Of a stretch of 34,005 bases of DNA, positions 17,897-26,443 are shown one piece after another. Below the pieces are notes generated by a model. It did not search any database and was not told the origin of the DNA. It saw only the letters and a program-made list of their open reading frames with translations. Position numbers and translations under genes: made by a program. The stretch's first letter is position 1. Every line of letters starts with the position of its first letter. This stretch comes from Saprospiraceae bacterium (GTDB lineage: Bacteria > Bacteroidota > Bacteroidia > Chitinophagales > Saprospiraceae). The stretch lies in contig JAQXAY010000125.1 of the NCBI GenBank assembly GCA_029252685.1, positions 1 to 34,005 of the forward strand, read 5' to 3'.

Positions 17897-17929
17897 AAAA
17901 ACCGAATCAGAAATTCTGATTCGGTTTTT
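17894..17929. terminator. Strong bidirectional intrinsic terminator between helicase and gldN
   Basis: CCGAATCAGA (17902-17911), loop AAT, TCTGATTCGG (17915-17924) make a perfect 10-bp stem. It is flanked by A8 on the left (17894-17901) and T5 on the right (17925-17929). It can end the helicase transcript (+) and the T9SS operon transcript (-), where the T-tract is eight long. The helicase stop codon overlaps its left arm. Confidence 0.93.
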
Positions 17930-17945
17930 AGTGGTTACTAATCGA

Positions 17946-18824
17946 TTAGTATGACCACAGATCCTGTTCCCAGTTGAAGATTTCATTTCTGATCTTCTCA
18001 CCTTCATACAGAATGTCTATACCACTAAGGTAATCTTTCAGACGTTCATTGAACTCATTTTCCTTTTTATAGATATAAGAAGAAAAATATCTGAATTCTA
18101 GAATATCCTCCCATGATAAAGGAGATGCACCATTACCTGGATTAAATGCACGTTCACGAGCAAGAACTTCTCTTGCGTTCGGGTAGTACACCCAGAATAA
18201 AGGCTCTTCATAAGCGAATGAACCATCATCTTCGTTCAATACATCCTTGATAGGAGCAATTCCTAAGATACGTACACGCATCTCAGACGACTCTTCATCG
18301 AAGAACCAAATCTCTTTGATACGGAAACGCTTTATATCTTCTGGATTGATATCATTTCGTGTAACCTCCATTTTCTCCTCATAAGTTTCGATATCGAATG
18401 TGATAACGGTATCAATCTTAGAGGCTTTAGAAGCTACTTCTTCTTTTGTTAATGGGTAGGTGAACTTATCGTCATCTGTTCCATAAACAGTTATCTCACC
18501 GCTTGTTGCGGCTTCCATAAGGATGTTAAAAAATGGACGTTCAGGATAAGCAAAAGACTTATTCATTTTTTCACGAACATCAATAACTCTCCAAATTTTA
18601 CGCTGCCAAAGTATATCCGCTTCGCGAACATGGTCGTATGGCAATACGCGAGATTCAACAACTAATTTTTCCTCAACAACACCATCGATTACAGGACGTG
18701 TGTCTAAGGGGTCACCTGATTCAGTTGTCACACCGGTTGGAGTACCTTGTGCAAACACTCCAAGTGGAAGTGCAAGAATCAAAAGAGACAGCATGAAACC
18801 TAATACATTAAGAGTCTTCTTCAT
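17946..18824 (-). CDS. gldN: T9SS periplasmic ring protein GldN/PorN
   Basis: This encodes 292 residues with a signal peptide (1 to about 26, ending GVFAQ). It is the last gene of the T9SS core operon. Family features are ILWQRKIWRVIDVREKMN and the PFFNILMEA segment near the N-terminus. Next come FRIKEIWFFDEESSEMRVRILGIAP and PLFWVYYPNARE, then a C-terminal WEDILEFRYFSSYIYKKEN with a helical tail. In characterised systems PorN/GldN assembles with the lipoprotein PorK/GldK into a large ring on the periplasmic side of the outer membrane, essential for T9SS export. Length and gene order match the family. A 12-bp hairpin separates it from gldM, so its expression may be tuned apart from gldLM. A strong terminator follows 21 nt after the stop. 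Confidence 0.95.
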   Translation of the reverse strand: MKKTLNVLGFMLSLLILALPLGVFAQGTPTGVTTESGDPLDTRPVIDGVVEEKLVVESRVLPYDHVREADILWQRKIWRVIDVREKMNKSFAYPERPFFNILMEAATSGEITVYGTDDDKFTYPLTKEEVASKASKIDTVITFDIETYEEKMEVTRNDINPEDIKRFRIKEIWFFDEESSEMRVRILGIAPIKDVLNEDDGSFAYEEPLFWVYYPNAREVLARERAFNPGNGASPLSWEDILEFRYFSSYIYKKENEFNERLKDYLSGIDILYEGEKIRNEIFNWEQDLWSY

Positions 18825-18841
18825 TATACAGCAATTTTAAT

Positions 18842-18872
18842 ATAAGACCGGATTTAAACCATCCGGTCTTAT
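18842..18872 (-). promoter_or_regulatory. Intercistronic hairpin between gldM and gldN
   Basis: ATAAGACCGGAT (18842-18853) and ATCCGGTCTTAT (18861-18872) form a perfect 12-bp stem with a 7-nt loop. It begins 14 nt after the gldM stop and ends 17 nt before the gldN start. No T-tract follows, so it is not a classical terminator. It more likely blocks 3' exonucleases, marks a processing site or acts as a partial attenuator (inference). Confidence 0.85.
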
Positions 18873-18886
18873 GAGAAGAATTAATT

Positions 18887-20488
18887 TTATCTGATAGTAA
18901 ATACCATAGATGGCAGGCTACGACCTGCAGGGTCACCTGGACATTTACCTTTTATATTTCTAAAATAGTACGTATCACCTGGCTTAGCCTGTGTTACTAG
19001 ACGCTTAGCTTTTGTGTTATACTTTGCACCTTTGTTAGGAGCAGTAACAGGATCTTGACGACTTGCTATTCTAACGAGGTCATACTCCTGAATATTACAT
19101 CTTGCATCAAAATCAAAGTTTTTCAACTCGGCTATCACACCTTGGTACGCTTTGAACGTTCCGTTACCCATATTACCTTCATGAATACCTGGAGCTAGTG
19201 CAGGTACTGGATCTGGAATACGCTTAACACGGAAAGGTACTTTTACTGGCTTAGGTCCTCCTGTAACGGTAACATAAGTAAACTTATTTCCCGTCGGCTT
19301 TTTAGCAACTACAGAATATGAACTTCCTTTTACTCGTTCGATGGACGCTTGTCCTTCACCCGTCATCTTTACGTTAATGGCATTAGAGTTAATACCCGCT
19401 GCAGAAACTGTAACTGGATTTTTAACACCAACATAGAATACATTCATCTTGTCTGCTGCTACAGCAATAGATGGCTGACCTACCTCAAACTCAAATTTTT
19501 GCTCGTAAGAATCAGTTTCCTGAGTAAGTGGGTTAGTTACATCAATCTTAACGTTGTAAGAGTTTGTACCTAATCTACCTCCTGTAGTTGAGAAAGCACC
19601 TTTACCTTCTTCCATAGGAACCTCTTTACCATTTACAAAGATCTTTGTAGATTCACTTGCAGCAGTAGAGAAAGCAGAAAGGAAGATATCAGCCTCATAT
19701 TTCTCACCTTGGAGAACATAGCTTGATTTAGCAGAAGCTACTGGGAAGAATGCATCAAACTTGATGATTTGTCCTTTTGACTCTGCAAACATCTCATTCA
19801 TTACTGCAGAAGCTGAAGTTTTAGCATCTGCCTGGAATGAACGAAGAATTGGAATTACTGCCGCTACAGGCATTTGACGGAACTTATAAGTAGACCAAGA
19901 CATATTCTTGTCTGCTTTTTTAAGGTTCAAATTTGCATTCCAATTTTCAATATTATCACCAAGAGGCATTGATTTTACCAATTGCTCTTGCTTTTCAGGT
20001 GAAACTAAACCTTTTAAGGCATCTCTAGTCTCAATGATTTTATCATAAATCTGCGGGCCTAATGGATCTATACCTTTCTTTGGTTGACCATCAACTAGCA
20101 TACGAGTGGTAATATCTTTATTCTTCTTATCCTTTGGTATATTAGAACCCGGTTTTTTCGGATCTTCCTTACCAGCAGCCTCGAATATATCATCGTATAT
20201 ATCTTCGATGTATTTATCGAAATTATCAGCGATCAATTTAGCTTCAGTTGCTTTAGTAAGAGCAATTTGCTTAAGAGTATCACCTTCGTATGCTTCCGCT
20301 TCCGCTTGAATCGCTGCAAGTACTTTTTCATTACTTTTTGTTACGATTTCATTAGAAGTAAGCATACTTTTCTCCAATGTAAAGAATGCGTTCATTACAG
20401 AGGCAGAAACATTTAACGCAAGCAGTGCTGTCAAAACCAGATACATCAGGTTGATCATCAGCTGCCGCGGTTCCTTAGGAATTGACAT
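18887..20488 (-). CDS. gldM: T9SS motor/periplasmic protein GldM/PorM
   Basis: This encodes 533 residues. The N-terminus has the family signature IPKEPRQLMINLMYLVLTALLALNVS: a short cytoplasmic start and a single inner-membrane helix (about 12-32). The rest is periplasmic. It begins with a helical part (about 35-220) and continues with several beta domains to the C-terminus, with repeats such as VEVGQPSIAVAADKMNVFYVGVKNPVTV. In known systems GldM dimers pass through the GldL pentamer and transmit proton-driven motion to the outer-membrane parts of T9SS. The length is the family norm. It lies 45 nt downstream of gldL with no hairpin between, while one does follow it before gldN. Start codon choice is fixed by the conserved N-terminus. 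Confidence 0.96.
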   Translation of the reverse strand: MSIPKEPRQLMINLMYLVLTALLALNVSASVMNAFFTLEKSMLTSNEIVTKSNEKVLAAIQAEAEAYEGDTLKQIALTKATEAKLIADNFDKYIEDIYDDIFEAAGKEDPKKPGSNIPKDKKNKDITTRMLVDGQPKKGIDPLGPQIYDKIIETRDALKGLVSPEKQEQLVKSMPLGDNIENWNANLNLKKADKNMSWSTYKFRQMPVAAVIPILRSFQADAKTSASAVMNEMFAESKGQIIKFDAFFPVASAKSSYVLQGEKYEADIFLSAFSTAASESTKIFVNGKEVPMEEGKGAFSTTGGRLGTNSYNVKIDVTNPLTQETDSYEQKFEFEVGQPSIAVAADKMNVFYVGVKNPVTVSAAGINSNAINVKMTGEGQASIERVKGSSYSVVAKKPTGNKFTYVTVTGGPKPVKVPFRVKRIPDPVPALAPGIHEGNMGNGTFKAYQGVIAELKNFDFDARCNIQEYDLVRIASRQDPVTAPNKGAKYNTKAKRLVTQAKPGDTYYFRNIKGKCPGDPAGRSLPSMVFTIR

Positions 20489-20533
20489 GGATCTTTTTTT
20501 TAGTGATTAAAAAATAATTTGACTCAATACTGA

Positions 20534-21121
20534 TTAGTTCTTACCGATGTTAGACATCGCGTTAAGTACGTTACCGTATACTGAATTCAAAGATCCAAGA
20601 TTCTGGTTCAAAGCAGCCAATTGGTCTTTGTATGCTTTAGTATCTTCAACAGAATCACTTAGGTCTGCCATTGCCTCGTTCAAACGAGTATAAAAGCTTC
20701 CCATAGCTCTAACCTGCTCAGAAGTTCCAGAGAAATCAATTTCTTGAAGTGCTTTCAAAGAAGAAAGCGATGCTGACATTGTCTTAAGCTCATCTAGCAT
20801 TCCGCTAAGATTAGATTCAACAACCTCAGAGTTTAGTCCTTTATTCATGTCACCCATGTCACCAGCTGTAAGTGGCGCTATGTTTGATTCATAGTCTGCT
20901 AATCCTGGGTATAGTTTCTCCCAGTAATAATCTTTATCTGGTCCGATAACACCTAACATTAAGAAGATTAATGCCTCTACACTCAAACCTACGATAAGCA
21001 TCTCAGATGCATATGGCCAAGACTGAAGCTTGAAAAGTGCTCCCATAAGTACAACTGCTGCACCGGCACCAATGATCAAGTTCTTAGCGTATTTAAAACC
21101 TTTAGATTTTACAAAACTCAT
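20534..21121 (-). CDS. gldL: T9SS motor membrane protein GldL/PorL
   Basis: This encodes 195 residues. Two membrane helices (about 12-32 and 40-60) are followed by a cytoplasmic helical tail. GALFKLQSWP at the end of helix 1 has Lys31, and helix 2 (MLIVGLSVEALIFLML) has Glu49. They correspond to the conserved membrane charges that take part in proton-coupled rotation of the GldL pentamer around GldM in studied systems. The motif GPDKDYYWEKLYPGL after helix 2 is typical. The C-terminal part (about 100-195) is predicted to form long helices (LDELKTMSASLSSLKALQEI). The gene is 183 nt downstream of gldK, separated by a 15-bp hairpin and a possible internal promoter, and is closely linked to gldM. 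Confidence 0.95.
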   Translation of the reverse strand: MSFVKSKGFKYAKNLIIGAGAAVVLMGALFKLQSWPYASEMLIVGLSVEALIFLMLGVIGPDKDYYWEKLYPGLADYESNIAPLTAGDMGDMNKGLNSEVVESNLSGMLDELKTMSASLSSLKALQEIDFSGTSEQVRAMGSFYTRLNEAMADLSDSVEDTKAYKDQLAALNQNLGSLNSVYGNVLNAMSNIGKN

Positions 21122-21200
21122 TTTCTTAGAATTTAATTTTGATTAGTCAATGGATATTTAAAATAATTGCTGTATTCATCCTTACAATTAGATAAAAACA

Positions 21201-21233
21201 AAAAGTTACATCTAAAGGAGAATTTTTTTTCAA
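21201..21233 (-). promoter_or_regulatory. Weak candidate internal promoter for gldLMN
   Basis: On the - strand TAACTTTT (21208 to 21201) differs from TAnnTTTG by one base, and a TTG (21233-21231) lies 22 nt upstream. It stands between the gldK hairpin and gldL, leaving a leader of about 75 nt. If real it would give gldLMN a supply independent of gldK. The match is imperfect. Confidence 0.25.
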
Positions 21234-21251
21234 CAAAAAAAATGACGAGAA

Positions 21252-21288
21252 TTTATGGATGTCAGTTGGGTATACTGACATCCATAAA
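21252..21288 (-). promoter_or_regulatory. Intercistronic 15-bp hairpin between gldK and gldL
   Basis: TTTATGGATGTCAGT (21252-21266) and ACTGACATCCATAAA (21274-21288) pair perfectly over 15 bp with a 7-nt loop, 16 nt after the gldK stop. On the - strand an 8-T run follows 9 nt beyond the stem, too far for standard intrinsic termination but possibly enough for partial termination. It is the longest perfect hairpin I found in the window. Confidence 0.88.
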
Positions 21289-21304: not shown

Positions 21305-22543
21305 CTAGAAATCGTCGATAGATCTACCTAGGAATGTAAGTGCACAACGGAAACCAACATATGATTTAGTCGTATCTTCATATTCCCAGTGACGTGTACC
21401 TGTCTGTAGGAAGAACATAACATCTTTCCAAGATCCACCACGGATTACTTTTCTTTTATATGCAATTGGATCGTCATCTTTAGAATCGTAACGAATATCC
21501 GGATTCAGATCATGAAGGTGTGCGTAAGCTCCAGCTTCGTAAGAAGACATTGTCCACTCAGCAACATTACCTGCCATATTGAATAGACCATAGTCATTCG
21601 GGAAGTAAGCATCTGCCTTTACAGTGTACAAACCACCATCTTCTGGATAGTTACCACGACCAGGCTTGAAGTTTGCAAGCAAACATCCTTTAGCATTTCT
21701 GATGTAGTAAGCTCCCCAAGGGAAAGGTGCTAAATCATGTCCACCTCTTGAAGCATATTCCCACTCGTGCTCAAATGGTAAACGGAAATCCTCCGTATTC
21801 ACACCATCTGCAGCATAAGAATTCCATAATTTTGTTCTCCAAAAACAAAAAGCATTAGCCATAGACCAGTTTACACCAACTACAGGGTAGTTGTCAAATG
21901 CTGGGTGCCAAAAATAGTTACGAGTCATTGGCTCATTATATGAGTAAGAGAAGTCACGTATCCAAACCATTGTATCTGGATAAACATTTACCTCTTCTTC
22001 AATAATGAAATTCCTTCTTGGAGATTTGCCTTTATCATGAGCAGCTTTTTTCCAATCGAACCATTGGTATTCATATTCTAGCTTACTCACATCAAGTTCT
22101 TTTTTACCTGCAAACTTATTGTTGCCTGTATAGAACATTTCTTCTAATTCTTCTGATTCCCAATCGATTTCAGCGTACCAATCGATATAGGTCTCACTTC
22201 CATCTTCTGACTCATACGTATTATCTAAAGTACTATGAGCAATAGAGTCCTTAACCCAATATACAAACTGACGATACTCGTTGTTTGTTATTTCAGTTTC
22301 ATCCATGTAGAAACCTTGGATTGAAATTGATTTAGGTCTTTGAACAAATGTGTTGGAGATGTCCTGGTCACTGTTTCCGATATGTAATGTTCCAGATGGG
22401 ATATAAACCATTCCGTATGGGTTTATGCCATTCCATGCTGGACGATCAATTACACCTAATAATTGACCATTTTCGCGAGATCCGCAAGACATTACTAATA
22501 TAAGTAATGTGAATGCGAAAGATGTCTTTAATAAATTCTTCAT
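21305..22543 (-). CDS. gldK: T9SS ring lipoprotein GldK/PorK
   Basis: This encodes 412 residues. The lipoprotein signal peptide has lipobox VMSC with the lipidated Cys at residue 20. The mature protein has the formylglycine-generating-enzyme/sulfatase-modifying (SUMF1) fold: PSGTLHIGNSDQD near 50, FRLPFEHEWEYASRGGHD (about 255-272), GLFNMAGNVAEWTMSSYE (about 320-337) and KVIRGGSWKD (about 360-370). It ends with YVGFRCALTF. GldK/PorK proteins use this fold as structural scaffold. With GldN they form the outer-membrane-bound periplasmic ring of T9SS. An insertion with KKAAHDKGKSPRRNF lies around 165-185, as in family members. A good -33/-7 promoter candidate sits just upstream, separate from that of porP. 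Confidence 0.96.
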   Translation of the reverse strand: MKNLLKTSFAFTLLILVMSCGSRENGQLLGVIDRPAWNGINPYGMVYIPSGTLHIGNSDQDISNTFVQRPKSISIQGFYMDETEITNNEYRQFVYWVKDSIAHSTLDNTYESEDGSETYIDWYAEIDWESEELEEMFYTGNNKFAGKKELDVSKLEYEYQWFDWKKAAHDKGKSPRRNFIIEEEVNVYPDTMVWIRDFSYSYNEPMTRNYFWHPAFDNYPVVGVNWSMANAFCFWRTKLWNSYAADGVNTEDFRLPFEHEWEYASRGGHDLAPFPWGAYYIRNAKGCLLANFKPGRGNYPEDGGLYTVKADAYFPNDYGLFNMAGNVAEWTMSSYEAGAYAHLHDLNPDIRYDSKDDDPIAYKRKVIRGGSWKDVMFFLQTGTRHWEYEDTTKSYVGFRCALTFLGRSIDDF

Positions 22544-22581: not shown

Positions 22582-22612
22582 TAAATATAGTTCCTTAATC
22601 ATTTATCACAAA
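22582..22612 (-). promoter_or_regulatory. Candidate promoter of gldKLMN
   Basis: On the - strand TTTG (22612 to 22609), a 19-nt spacer and TATATTTA (22589 to 22582) make a -33/-7 pair. The spacing is right and only the last base of TAnnTTTG differs. Transcription would begin near 22575, about 30 nt before the gldK ATG. The remainder of the 291-nt porP-gldK gap holds a short direct repeat and a weak hairpin only. Confidence 0.5.
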
Positions 22613-22746
22613 ATGAAATTTTTAAAATTTCGAAAATATCAGTTAAAACTTCAGATTTCAGCCTAAAAAAGAATGAAAATCTAATGTTTTACAGCGATTT
22701 ATAAAATTAAACAAATTGTGAAGGGCAGATTAAGGCCCTCAGAAAC

Positions 22747-22834: not shown

Positions 22835-23806
22835 TCAACTTTTGTAGCGTTGATTATAAATAATTGGGGGTAGCTTACCTTTCCACACCGCTTTTCCAAG
22901 GTCATATCTAATGAAGAGTTCATGCGAACCTCCATGTACAGTTTTTAATGCTGAGACACCTATATCATATGCGTAATAAAGACTTACTCGCTCTCCGAAG
23001 TAATACCCAATAAATGGCACAACCGAATCTATAGATAAGCTATTATAACCTCTGAACGAGGCTCCAAATACAATATTGTCATCAAAAGAAACTTTCACAC
23101 CTGCATCTAGTTGGCTCTGCGACAAAACAGACTTAAGCAAAATACTCGGTGTTAATTCCATACGCCTGCCCATTTCAAATGAGTTAGACACAAACAAATA
23201 ATATGCTCTTCCAGAAACTACATTCAGACCATCTAGTACCTTAGCACCTTCTGAAATATTCAATATAGATAAGCCAGCAGAAAAATCATTGCTCACGTAC
23301 ATTAGACCAAAATCTGTATTGTAGTTACTCCCCTGCATGTTTCCTGAAGAGAAAAGCGCATCTTGGTGATTCGGAATATTACCTTCATAAACACCTCCTG
23401 GGGTCCGAATCAAATTACCATCAATGGAGAAATCCTGCCAATAGGCGGTAAAACCCATCCGAATGCTTGAGTTGCGATTCAAAAAATAATTGTAGGCATA
23501 CGAAAGACCAATACGATTTCCTCTAGTAGAACCTAATTGTTCCTGCTCAAAAAATAAACCAATTCCGCCAGATAAAGGCTCGGCGCCCATTTGAACATTT
23601 ACATGTTGACTGACTGGCGACCCTGCCAATCCACTCCATTGATTCCGAATACCTCCAGACAGAATTACATGCTCATCTAACCCAGTTGCTGCAGGATTAA
23701 ATGCTGCTGGATTCAAGGCATATAGACTGTATTGTTGAGTATTTTGTCCCAACATCAAGAAAGGCAAAAGAAAAAGAAAAGCAGTTGGAAGTATAAGTCT
23801 AACCAT
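22835..23806 (-). CDS. T9SS outer-membrane protein, PorP/SprF family
   Basis: This encodes 323 residues. The signal peptide (1 to about 20, ending MLGQ) is followed by the family N-terminus TQQYSLYALNPAAFNPAATGLDEHVILSGGIRNQWSGLAGSPVSQHVN, whose NPAxxNPAxxG pattern is diagnostic. Alternating beta-strands (GLSYAYNYFL, MRMGFTAYW-like, FGLMYVSNDFSAGLSILN) run to the C-terminus (YYAYDIGVSAL, HELFIRYDL) and fit an outer-membrane barrel of about 14 strands. PorP-type proteins belong to the T9SS, and SprF paralogues support secretion of particular adhesins. Its place directly ahead of gldKLMN matches the porPKLMN order and favours the core PorP role. The two cannot be told apart from sequence alone. 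The 291-nt gap to gldK contains a separate promoter candidate, so co-transcription is not certain. Confidence 0.92.
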   Translation of the reverse strand: MVRLILPTAFLFLLPFLMLGQNTQQYSLYALNPAAFNPAATGLDEHVILSGGIRNQWSGLAGSPVSQHVNVQMGAEPLSGGIGLFFEQEQLGSTRGNRIGLSYAYNYFLNRNSSIRMGFTAYWQDFSIDGNLIRTPGGVYEGNIPNHQDALFSSGNMQGSNYNTDFGLMYVSNDFSAGLSILNISEGAKVLDGLNVVSGRAYYLFVSNSFEMGRRMELTPSILLKSVLSQSQLDAGVKVSFDDNIVFGASFRGYNSLSIDSVVPFIGYYFGERVSLYYAYDIGVSALKTVHGGSHELFIRYDLGKAVWKGKLPPIIYNQRYKS

Positions 23807-23975: not shown

Positions 23976-25352
23976 TTAGTTTAGACTTCGCAATAAATTT
24001 CGCAAAAGCCTATGTTTAGATATCGCCCTACCTTTCAAAATCCTTCTAAGTTGATCTTCGAATGCAAAAACCAACCCTTTATTAAGGATTATACTAAATC
24101 CCAATTGCTGATATGCATCAGATTTTGCAAGTATAAGGCTTTCAATATATGCTCTTTTTTCATTTGATATATAAAATTCACCCGAAATCCATCTTAAAAA
24201 AGTGTTTAAGCTGATTTGATACTTATCAACAAAATTAGCAGCCCCACTTTTACCATAAACACTAAATAGAGCATCCTGCTTAGTAGCCACAAAATTCATT
24301 TCCAATTGTTCGGTCCATATATCGATCAAATATGCTGGAATGCCGCAAGAACTGTCTACAAAAAAAACGGCTGATTTATCTAAGGCTGGATCATCAGTTC
24401 TTAAAGCTTGCGAATGCCTATCATATAATATTCTATTTTCGTATCCGACATCCAATAATCGCATAGCACTCCTCAATTCATCCCCTTCAATGATTCCTTC
24501 TTTTTTTTCCACCTTCAATTGATATAATCGCTGCCTGAGGACCCCATCAATATTCAAAACCGAACAGCGCCTTGCAAAATTCAGATAGGATGCAGTTGCA
24601 AACTTTGTTCTAATCTTCTTTAATCGAGGACCTGCAACTAATAAGTCATAAGGATGAAAATTCAAGCCTCGTATATCAAGGGTTTCCAATCTTTCAAATT
24701 GAAAGACTTCCTTTGGAATGTGCAAAAGCTTTGTTTGAAAAAGATCAAGCTTCTTCAAGTAATTCGACTTTTGATCACCTAAATTTAATGCTACTAGAGG
24801 ATTCTTTGAGAGGTCGAGGGATTCCAAAAAAGGCTTAGTCCAAATAAGTGCTGGCAAATGCGTAAAACAATTTGAGCTGAGATCAAGCCGCTTCAATAAG
24901 CGTAAAGTAGAAAATGAATCAGGCAAATCAATAAGCTTGTTTTCTCCGAGAAAAAGCGCTCGTAACAAAACCATGCCTTCAAAAAGTGAATGCTCAAGAG
25001 CCTGAATTTTATTATTTCCCAAATCTAATTCTTGCAGTTCTGGAAACTTCTTATCAGCACCTTGAATAGAATCCACCTTGTTATTGGATAAATTTAATTT
25101 CCGAATTGATGAGATATGCCTATTGGAAAAGGAAAGCTTAGTAAGCTTATTGAAAGAAAGGTCTAAATCATGAAGTGTAGGAATATGAAACACAGCCTCA
25201 GGAATTCTTTTCAATCGATTATTACTGAGGTTTAAGCTACGAAGATTGGGTAGCTTAAATATGGCTGCTGGAATTTGATTAATCCCCAAGCCAGAAAGAT
25301 CTAAGAACTTTGTATTGTCATCAAAAATCAACTTAGGATTCTGTCTTTCCAT
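23976..25352 (-). CDS. Leucine-rich-repeat protein with unrecognised C-terminal domain
   Basis: This encodes 458 residues from ATG 25352. Another ATG at 25415 in the same frame would add 21 residues, further inside the upstream gene. There is no signal peptide or membrane helix, so it is probably cytoplasmic. Residues about 15-250 hold some ten leucine-rich repeats of LxxLDLSxNxLxxLP type (LRSLNLSNNRLKRIP, LHDLDLSFNKLTKL, LKRLDLSSNCFTHLP, LESLDLSKNPLVAL), a protein-binding surface. The last 200 residues or so form a separate domain that I do not recognise. It has a basic stretch after the repeats, a central AVFFVDSSCGIPAYLIDIW, TFLRWISGEFY, and a basic C-terminus (RRILKGRAISKHRLLRNLLR). The gene overlaps the upstream glycosyltransferase by 25 nt, so it is translationally linked. 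Its function is unknown. Confidence 0.8.
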   Translation of the reverse strand: MERQNPKLIFDDNTKFLDLSGLGINQIPAAIFKLPNLRSLNLSNNRLKRIPEAVFHIPTLHDLDLSFNKLTKLSFSNRHISSIRKLNLSNNKVDSIQGADKKFPELQELDLGNNKIQALEHSLFEGMVLLRALFLGENKLIDLPDSFSTLRLLKRLDLSSNCFTHLPALIWTKPFLESLDLSKNPLVALNLGDQKSNYLKKLDLFQTKLLHIPKEVFQFERLETLDIRGLNFHPYDLLVAGPRLKKIRTKFATASYLNFARRCSVLNIDGVLRQRLYQLKVEKKEGIIEGDELRSAMRLLDVGYENRILYDRHSQALRTDDPALDKSAVFFVDSSCGIPAYLIDIWTEQLEMNFVATKQDALFSVYGKSGAANFVDKYQISLNTFLRWISGEFYISNEKRAYIESLILAKSDAYQQLGFSIILNKGLVFAFEDQLRRILKGRAISKHRLLRNLLRSLN

Positions 25353-26443
25353 GTGTAACGCTTTGCACGCATTGCTAATATCCCTGCCCCTACAATATAA
25401 ATAATATGTAGACATTGAACTAGCAAATACGAACCCCGCTTTATTTTTTGGCCATATTTTTTTGTCATAATGGTCAAATACATAAAATCAATGAAAGTCC
25501 TGCAAATCATAAACACTACAAAAGCGCTAAGAAAAGAACTATCCATTAATGCTAACAGACCAAGTAAAACAATGAAGACGCTAAACCCAAAAGCTAGCCC
25601 GATATGATACAAGATATTTTTATTGGTATAGGCTGATGTTTTACCTGCCCAACGAATACGCTGTTGAAAAAATCCTTTCCAACTTAATTCAGGATTCGTA
25701 ATAACCTCTGCCTCTACCTGGTCATTAAAGTCAACGCTGCCTTTATGCAGCATAGAAAATTGACTAATCAACCACATATCATCAGCTGCTGACCATTTTT
25801 CACTACCCTCAAATCCACCTACCTCATAAAAAGATTTCCGTCTAAAGGCCAAATTTGCACCGTTTGCCATAGCAAAATCAAGCCCACGGTGACCAGCGCT
25901 AGTCATACCCATTACGCCTATCATATCCAAGAATTGTAGTTCTTGCAGTGGACTTCCAGTAGAGGCTATTCTAACAGGACCACAGCAGGCAACTACATGT
26001 GCAGGTATTTCTCTTTCAAAAAAACTTAACAGCCAGTTTTCTCCTACTGTGCAGTCTGCATCCGAACATATAATCCACGGCGTATCAGCCTGATTTATTG
26101 CTGCATTCAAGGCTTCAATCTTACCCTCAGATCTCTCTGGCAAACTTAAAAAGCTAAAGTTTTCTTTTAGATTATTGACATGCTTCTCAAAGTCATCAGA
26201 AGAATGGTCGTTAATCAAAATTACCTGATAACGATCCTTTGGATAATTTTGATTCTCGAGAGAACGAATCCGCTCTTGGAGATTTGATGCTTCGTTCCTG
26301 AAGGGAATCACTACAGTTACTTGTGGTAAGTCAACCACAGAAGGTTCTTCTTCTTTTCTCCTATTCAATCGTAGATAGCTCCAGATGTTCCTTGCATATA
26401 AGCATGCAAGAACAAGACCTGAAATCCATGCGAAGGTCAGCAA
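25328..26443 (-). CDS. Membrane glycosyltransferase family 2 with TTG start
   Basis: This encodes 371 residues. One N-terminal helix (about 4-20) precedes a GT2 domain (about 40-260): VVIPFRNEASNL, INDHSSDD, CSDADCTV (metal-binding DxD) and FQQRIRWAGK, a Q(Q)RxRW-type end motif. Three C-terminal helices follow (about 270-355). It would transfer sugars at the inner membrane, with substrate unknown. No ATG exists in frame near the N-terminus. The frame opens only 15 nt upstream at a TAA, and the one usable initiator is TTG at 26443. That start lies 1 nt after the stop of the upstream membrane-protein gene, which suggests coupled re-initiation. The gene ends 25 nt inside the LRR gene. Confidence 0.85.
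   Translation of the reverse strand: MLTFAWISGLVLACLYARNIWSYLRLNRRKEEEPSVVDLPQVTVVIPFRNEASNLQERIRSLENQNYPKDRYQVILINDHSSDDFEKHVNNLKENFSFLSLPERSEGKIEALNAAINQADTPWIICSDADCTVGENWLLSFFEREIPAHVVACCGPVRIASTGSPLQELQFLDMIGVMGMTSAGHRGLDFAMANGANLAFRRKSFYEVGGFEGSEKWSAADDMWLISQFSMLHKGSVDFNDQVEAEVITNPELSWKGFFQQRIRWAGKTSAYTNKNILYHIGLAFGFSVFIVLLGLLALMDSSFLSAFVVFMICRTFIDFMYLTIMTKKYGQKIKRGSYLLVQCLHIIYIVGAGILAMRAKRYTWKDRILS

Follow-up and report, generated by a model that had tools for sequence, protein, structure and literature searches.

The control of type IX secretion system (T9SS) genes by extracytoplasmic function (ECF) sigma factors is already known. In the PorXY-SigP system of Porphyromonas gingivalis (Kadowaki 2016), SigP was bound upstream of porT, ruvA, porV, and porP, not sov or porK, its motif was CTAAA-like, and the porP-porN region was polycistronic at least in part, according to the accessible part of that report (PMC4800418). 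In Flavobacterium psychrophilum, promoters of the ECF-type class SM6, which have a CGT -10 box, are located ahead of gldN, porU, and an operon for an ECF factor and its anti-sigma factor, as listed in the available portion of that study (PMC9723704). Herein, a stretch of 34,005 nucleotides from a Saprospiraceae bacterium (contig JAQXAY010000125.1; the whole stretch is called the window) was analyzed at its T9SS core locus, where porP, gldK, gldL, gldM, and gldN follow each other on the minus strand and a hairpin follows gldK and gldM. The best explanation overall, to which we give a probability of about 0.75, is that the gldK hairpin is a 3' transcript boundary, and that gldL has its own promoter read by an ECF sigma factor.

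The Saprospiraceae locus resembles PorXY-SigP, as far as that system is described in the accessible part of the report, in that an ECF sigma factor would drive T9SS core genes. It differs in the sequence of the box, TGTWACYTTT-N11-CRTTAT, in its position between gldK and gldL, and in the membrane partner gene beside the ECF gene. When compared by eye, this box did not match the SigP motif as given there. The SM6 class, in the portion available, is similar in having ECF-type promoters with a CGT -10 before T9SS genes and before an ECF/anti-sigma operon; however, the listed selection names gldN, not gldL, whereas the main Saprospiraceae box precedes gldL. Set beside the CGT of SM6, the -10 core is CRTT (CGTT or CATT) in the family gldL box, AATT in the window, and CGTT in a second box found before gldN in other genomes; the comparison covered the -10 cores. 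The second box, AATAG-N13-16-CGTT, is reminiscent of the SM6 promoter of gldN. In the literature searched, mostly without subscription papers and including the accessible part of PMC5879114, no account of a gldL promoter or of ECF control in Saprospiraceae was found. The accessible part of PMC5395568, in which gldK, gldL, promoter, and intergenic occur together, reports no gldL promoter or gldK terminator. The motor-centered circuit described below appears to vary this known type of control in a new way.

The two hairpins were found in the window exactly as the original prediction had described them. The gldK hairpin has a perfect 15-bp stem (arms 21252-21266 and 21274-21288), the gldM hairpin has a perfect 12-bp stem (arms 18842-18853 and 18861-18872), both have 7-nt loops, and they start 16 and 14 nt after the respective stop codons. 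When folded as RNA on the coding (minus) strand, the gldK hairpin reached -21.0 kcal/mol (z -5.1) and the gldM hairpin -18.3 kcal/mol (z -4.1), and none of 200 shuffles was equally stable in either case. The 45-nt gap between gldL and gldM contained no hairpin at or below -6 kcal/mol, again as predicted. The gene identities also held, as all five genes exceeded their own NCBIfam cut-offs.

An ECF-type promoter-like box was identified 41 nt past the gldK hairpin. It reads TGTAACTTTTTGTTTTTATCTAATTGT on the minus strand from 21210 to 21184, which corresponds to TGTAACTTTT-N11-AATTGT. The family consensus given above was found by reading gldK-gldL spacers. On a weight matrix made from 22 gldK-gldL sites, with the window genus excluded, the window box scored 15.2 bits. 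From the start of the box to the gldL start codon, the median distance is 101.5 nt (32 genomes). The strict box was found in 17/78 gldK-gldL spacers and in none of the porP-gldK (0/73), gldL-gldM (0/80), and gldM-gldN (0/70) spacers. Similarly, the -35-only form was found in 32/78 gldK-gldL spacers, compared with 1/73, 0/80, and 1/70 in the other three.

The strict pattern was then counted over 100 family genomes, giving 66 sites in 35 genomes compared with 6 for the reversed control, with one to four sites per positive genome. Of these sites, 22 stand before gldL, 10 before the ECF sigma gene, and 11 before gldM/gldN paralogs, one of which is just a gldM C-terminal-domain gene; together they make 43 of the 66. 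The remaining 23 sites are mixed. They include type-A T9SS cargo (L139, L141, L339), WG-repeat proteins (L151, L343), OmpA-domain proteins (L144, L331, L337), various further kinds, and sites lacking a clear gene; two (G023:C23 and G151:C89) are counted without a reading of the genes behind them. Extra gldM/gldN copies stand behind the box at L134, L135, L143, L147, L148, L327, L332, L333, L338, L340, and L341. These copies are possibly alternative T9SS motors under the ECF factor.

The ECF gene of the window's own genome lies on another contig (C171:5599-6246). Its protein of about 200 aa matched the TIGR02937 superfamily with 77.3 bits, above the cut-off of 42.9, and the ECF protein of a relative contains Pfam sigma-70 regions 2 and 4, which is the layout of an ECF factor at this protein length. 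The ECF gene is followed by a gene for a protein of about 580 aa with no recognized family and one repeat match below cut-off. A model of this partner from Lewinella cohaerens (39 sequences; pLDDT 83, pTM 0.57) predicts short N-terminal helices and beta domains, as well as a long helix (379-433); we read helix 46-69 of this model as membrane-spanning. Judged from its position and topology, the partner is presumed to be an anti-sigma factor. At L152:2547-3986 (minus strand, G158:C12), a gene behind the box encodes a protein that matches the beta-rich part of the partner without its N-terminal part, and frames of about 480 aa resembling the L152 protein occur in several further family genomes.

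The same promoter sequence was looked for upstream of the ECF gene itself. From 419 relatives (named genomes), 80 ECF loci were kept; 76 of them were scanned with the gldL-trained matrix over 300 nt, or all available sequence of at least 180 nt, and four with less than 180 nt upstream were skipped. A score of at least 16 bits was reached in 64/76 upstream regions compared with 0/380 shuffles. The two blocks were spaced as at gldL in 55 of these sites, and 9 had one additional nt between them. The ECF site of the own genome is 35 nt from the first ATG of the open reading frame (ORF), which it precedes, and 104 nt before the homologous start. A promoter upstream of its own ECF gene is the usual mark of ECF autoregulation. 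At the level of sequence, the ECF gene is thus predicted to regulate itself through the promoter sequence that its targets carry. In the window genus, the -10 drifted alike at the gldL and ECF promoters, and the ECF protein is also diverged (6.7e-53, compared with 1e-75 to 1e-117 for most other genomes). A variant -35 block, TGTAACCAA(A/T), occurs in the ECF upstream regions L297, L302, L303, L305, L316, L319, and L325, from Phaeodactylibacter and others, and suggests drift of the recognition sequence. Over the phylum, ECF homologs at E <= 1e-35 were found in 5/296 genomes, one being the window's own. The other four yielded one box match (G195), on a different contig from gldL, and the same wiring outside the family was rejected.

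The ECF gene, the box, and the gldK hairpin were further compared across the family. A profile built from an alignment of five ECF proteins of box-bearing genomes found a clear member (E <= 1e-30) in 44/100 family genomes, one of which has two. The contingency tables cover 77 family genomes whose spacer could be read, without L032 (G002), a further genome of the window's genus that was not in the 100-genome draw. The cut-offs were at least 12 bits for the gldL box, and at most -17 kcal/mol with a start within 35 nt for the gldK hairpin. The gldL box was present in 32/34 genomes with the ECF gene and in 2/43 without it (Fisher 6e-17, uncorrected for kinship). On a tree of GldK, GldL, and GldM with 78 rows, the ECF label changes 11 times. 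Among 11 independent tree pairs, ECF gene and box differed in the same direction in 8 (7 in some pairings), in the opposite direction in none, and 3 or 4 gave no difference (p 0.008). This indicates, at the level of sequence comparison, that the ECF gene and the gldL box were gained or lost together repeatedly.

Similarly, the strong gldK hairpin tracks the gldL box. It was found in 33/34 box-positive and 3/43 box-negative genomes (3/44 when L032 is counted), and the tree pairs were about 8 to 0 (p 0.008, range 0.004-0.07). Of the 33 genomes with both, 31 have a hairpin that ends before the box and 2 have one that overlaps it. With respect to the ECF gene, the hairpin occurs in 31/34 genomes with it and in 5/43 without it, and it ends before the box in 29 of these 31. 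Twelve ECF-less genomes are nested within the half of the tree in which most genomes have the ECF gene. In 8 of them neither box nor hairpin reaches the cut-offs, and some of these 8 have short gldK-gldL spacers (98 nt in L066, 50 nt in L086). The division of the core operon by the hairpins, as originally claimed, is borne out and recurs in relatives, at the gldM hairpin as well (see below).

Based on these data, the core operon would be read as at least two units, with (porP-)gldK transcribed by the housekeeping sigma factor and gldL-gldM(-gldN) by the ECF factor. The gldK hairpin would form the 3' end of the gldK transcript, stopping or protecting the gldK mRNA, and would keep housekeeping transcription out of the ECF-controlled motor genes. 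Just beyond it, the box would serve gldL as its own promoter, read by one dedicated ECF sigma factor. The gene of this factor, elsewhere in the genome and beside the membrane-anchored presumed anti-sigma protein, would be autoregulated by the same promoter sequence. The motor genes could then be controlled apart from the ring gene. In agreement with a housekeeping unit, a primary-sigma promoter-like site precedes gldK and is kept in both genus relatives. TAnnTTTG boxes were found in 37/73 porP-gldK spacers compared with 13.9 in shuffles, and in 14/78 gldK-gldL spacers compared with 9.8; in the gldK-site copy of the window, the last base of this motif deviates.

Several observations weigh against this reading. 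The window hairpins share with ordinary intrinsic terminators the position just past the stop codon and a long, stable GC-cored stem, but the U-tract directly after the stem is absent at both of them. As originally described, an 8-T run sits 9 nt beyond the gldK stem. Over the family, a T-run of at least 4 stands at the 3' end of the gldK stem in just 13/31 ECF-bearing genomes, the window included. Because the U-tract beside the stem is absent, the gldK hairpin is named here a boundary that is possibly terminator-like and is not filed as a terminator. The window box has an altered -10, AATTGT instead of CRTTAT, and the strict pattern gave 0 matches in the window's own genome (G000) and in the genus relative G001. 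A loose pattern, allowing any base before ATT in the -10, gave 3 matches in the 3.44 Mb of the own genome compared with 5 for the reversed control. One of the three lies before gldL, one before the ECF gene, and one (contig C66) has no recognized gene, with no ATG-started ORF of at least 80 aa on its strand in the downstream stretch listed. G001 has the same two sites, at gldL and the ECF gene, among seven loose matches. The argument within the own genome thus rests on the positions of the sites, since the strict pattern is absent and the loose one is not above its control. The partner protein gave no match to an anti-sigma family, and its model matched no PDB fold at E <= 0.001.

The comparison across genomes also contains contrary points. 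For the ECF gene and the gldK hairpin, the tree pairs were 7 to 0 or 1, with p only 0.07. At the threshold first tried, -13 kcal/mol, the hairpin occurred in 31/34 genomes with the ECF gene compared with 16/43 without it, and the threshold was tightened to -17 after the data were seen. In L089 and L103 the hairpin overlaps the box, which excludes a role as a boundary ahead of it. G005 and G059 carry the ECF gene, but no gldL box at the cut-off. Among the 12 nested ECF-less genomes, L071 and L105 keep the hairpin alone, and L057 (G011) and L063 (G065) retain box and hairpin with just distant ECF matches of 1.7e-19 and 4.3e-18. The left-out L032 has the ECF gene (1.1e-53), with a gldL box of 11.7 bits, below 12, and a gldK hairpin of -16.4 kcal/mol, weaker than -17. 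As a separate observation, the gldL box of L103 (G035) and L089 (G073) lies within a long inverted repeat, and this repeat forms the strongest hairpin at the start of the spacer.

The original prediction had proposed that the hairpins act on the mRNA, with gldKLMN as one transcript and the stem-loops setting half-lives or partial termination. For the locus as a whole we consider this unlikely, although it survives best among the alternatives. It fits the lack of a U-tract adjoining either hairpin, and the porPKLMN region of P. gingivalis, polycistronic at least in part as given in the accessible part of PMC4800418, agrees with it. Hairpins of this kind are also common in the window's own genome. 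In a census of 23 pieces (242 kb of 3.44 Mb; at most -13 kcal/mol within 35 nt of the stop, with crude calling of ORFs of at least 100 aa), they were found at 21/26 convergent stops, at 13/32 stops before same-strand gaps of 40-120 nt, and at 8/31 stops before same-strand gaps of 120-1500 nt. Taken singly, without the box and ECF context, the window hairpins are ordinary. However, an effect on mRNA only leaves unexplained why a box stands at a fixed spacing downstream of the gldK hairpin, why it recurs before the ECF gene, and why ECF gene, box, and hairpin were gained and lost together. The observation behind the proposal was correct and its interpretation half right: mRNA stability or partial termination is still the best guess at the gldM-gldN junction of the window, whereas the gldK-gldL boundary is read as a change of promoter and not just as an effect on the mRNA, because a likely ECF promoter lies between the hairpin and gldL.

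The box may instead be an operator of a DNA-binding regulator, with the real gldL promoter elsewhere in the spacer. The gldK-gldL spacers, with a median of 240 nt in ECF-bearing genomes, are long enough to fit this. However, the box consists of two blocks with AAC and CRT cores 15 nt apart, and the form with both cores was found in 22/78 gldK-gldL spacers on the coding strand and in 0/78 on the opposite strand. This layout, together with the position of the box before the ECF gene, makes an operator quite improbable. That both hairpins are unselected, ordinary stem-loops is hardly credible: their abundance in the own genome and the weakness of gldK-stem covariation in the genus (3 sequences; 41/500 shuffles as high) favor it, but four of the 15 gldK-stem pairs changed on both sides, more than in any slid version of the stem, and the gldK hairpin is strongly tied to the box across the family. 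Covariation was the check suggested with the original prediction, and its outcome is positive but weak. The pair count applies to the gldK stem; the gldM stem is identical in L031 and has altered arms in L032, where MAFFT misaligned it.

The gldM-gldN junction differs between the two groups of genomes. The median spacer is 125 nt in ECF-bearing compared with 29 nt in ECF-less genomes, and a gldM hairpin (at most -13 kcal/mol) was found in 23/30 ECF-bearing compared with 6/39 ECF-less genomes (pairs about 6 to 0, p 0.03). The second box was found before gldN in 15/31 ECF-bearing and 0/39 ECF-less spacers, with a shuffled mean of 0.06. This count includes L032 as ECF-bearing, as an original tally of 15/30 and 0/40 had misplaced it, and it is post hoc because the box was found by reading the spacers. 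The 15 genomes are L033, L034, L035, L038, L039, L042, L043, L044, L056, L061, L069, L070, L072, L083, and L110. Over 1.43 Mb of family loci, the motif gave 35 matches and its reversed control also 35; since the motif as such is no commoner than the control, just its position before gldN is informative. In half of the ECF-bearing genomes readable at this junction, gldN would thus have its own promoter-like box. The box falls inside the gldM hairpin in several genomes. A dispersed repeat (TAATAG-N15-CGTT with a CA tail) was considered for this junction and rejected, with 3 matches in 9 genomes compared with 6 for the reversed controls. The window and G001, both ECF-bearing, have no such box before gldN, and the window genus lacks it. 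In the window, the end of the gldM hairpin is 17 nt from the gldN start. Because of this short gap and the missing promoter box, partial termination or 3'-end protection is the best guess here, and the gldM hairpin would lower, not abolish, read-through into gldN.

Taken over the family, we lean slightly toward a picture in which one machine is read as three units, with gldK under the housekeeping sigma factor, gldLM and the spare gldM/gldN genes under the ECF factor, and, in many genera, a third type of promoter for gldN, the hairpins serving as insulators. To the same slight degree, we favor that the autoregulated pair of ECF sigma factor and membrane sensor sets the number and kind of T9SS motors. 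This reading bears on the ratio that cells set between T9SS motors (GldLM) and rings (GldKN), and on whether motors can be swapped. The small regulon that would link ECF factor, membrane partner, motor genes, and spare motor genes is testable in cultured Saprospiraceae. In this clade, the T9SS core appears divided into units under separate control, with the hairpins as their probable boundaries and a dedicated ECF circuit as the likely driver. This cautions against taking gldKLMN for a single operon across Bacteroidota, and the box together with the ECF gene would be a sequence signature predicting where it is not. The features of the locus are given in Table 1.

Table 1 Genes, hairpins, and promoter-like sites of the T9SS core locus, in coordinates of the window.
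Feature	Position	Strand	Details
porP/sprF-family gene, upstream of gldK	22835..23806	-	TIGR03519, 157 bits, above cut-off
Primary-sigma (sigmaA) promoter-like site of gldK	22582..22613	-	TTTTGTG ... TATATTTA; kept in both genus relatives
gldK, T9SS ring lipoprotein	21305..22543	-	TIGR03525, 568 bits
Hairpin after gldK, proposed transcription boundary	21252..21288	-	Terminator-like; 8-T run 21235-21242
ECF-type promoter-like box of gldL	21184..21210	-	-35 TGTAACTTTT (21201-21210), -10 region AATTGT (21184-21189)
gldL, T9SS motor	20534..21121	-	TIGR03513, 125 bits
gldM, T9SS motor	18887..20488	-	TIGR03517, 251.6 bits
Hairpin after gldM, proposed to terminate the gldLM segment in part or to protect its 3' end	18842..18872	-	
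gldN, T9SS ring	17946..18824	-	TIGR03523, 185.7 bits
Bidirectional terminator-like hairpin between gldN and a convergent helicase gene	17897..17929	.	16 bp, A/T-tracts, z -5.9

A scan of the window with Rfam gave no family reaching its gathering score. Generic scans for sigma-70 promoters and terminators gave counts not above those in shuffles and were not used. The sequence CTAACC was found shortly before the gldL start codon (last 70 nt) in 16/34 ECF-bearing compared with 6/43 ECF-less genomes, with about 0.5 in shuffles, and may be a conserved element of the 5' untranslated region. Upstream of porP, a 479-aa protein is encoded at 23976-25415 on the minus strand; it has leucine-rich-repeat matches (XopAC, XopL, LIC_11051), all below cut-off.

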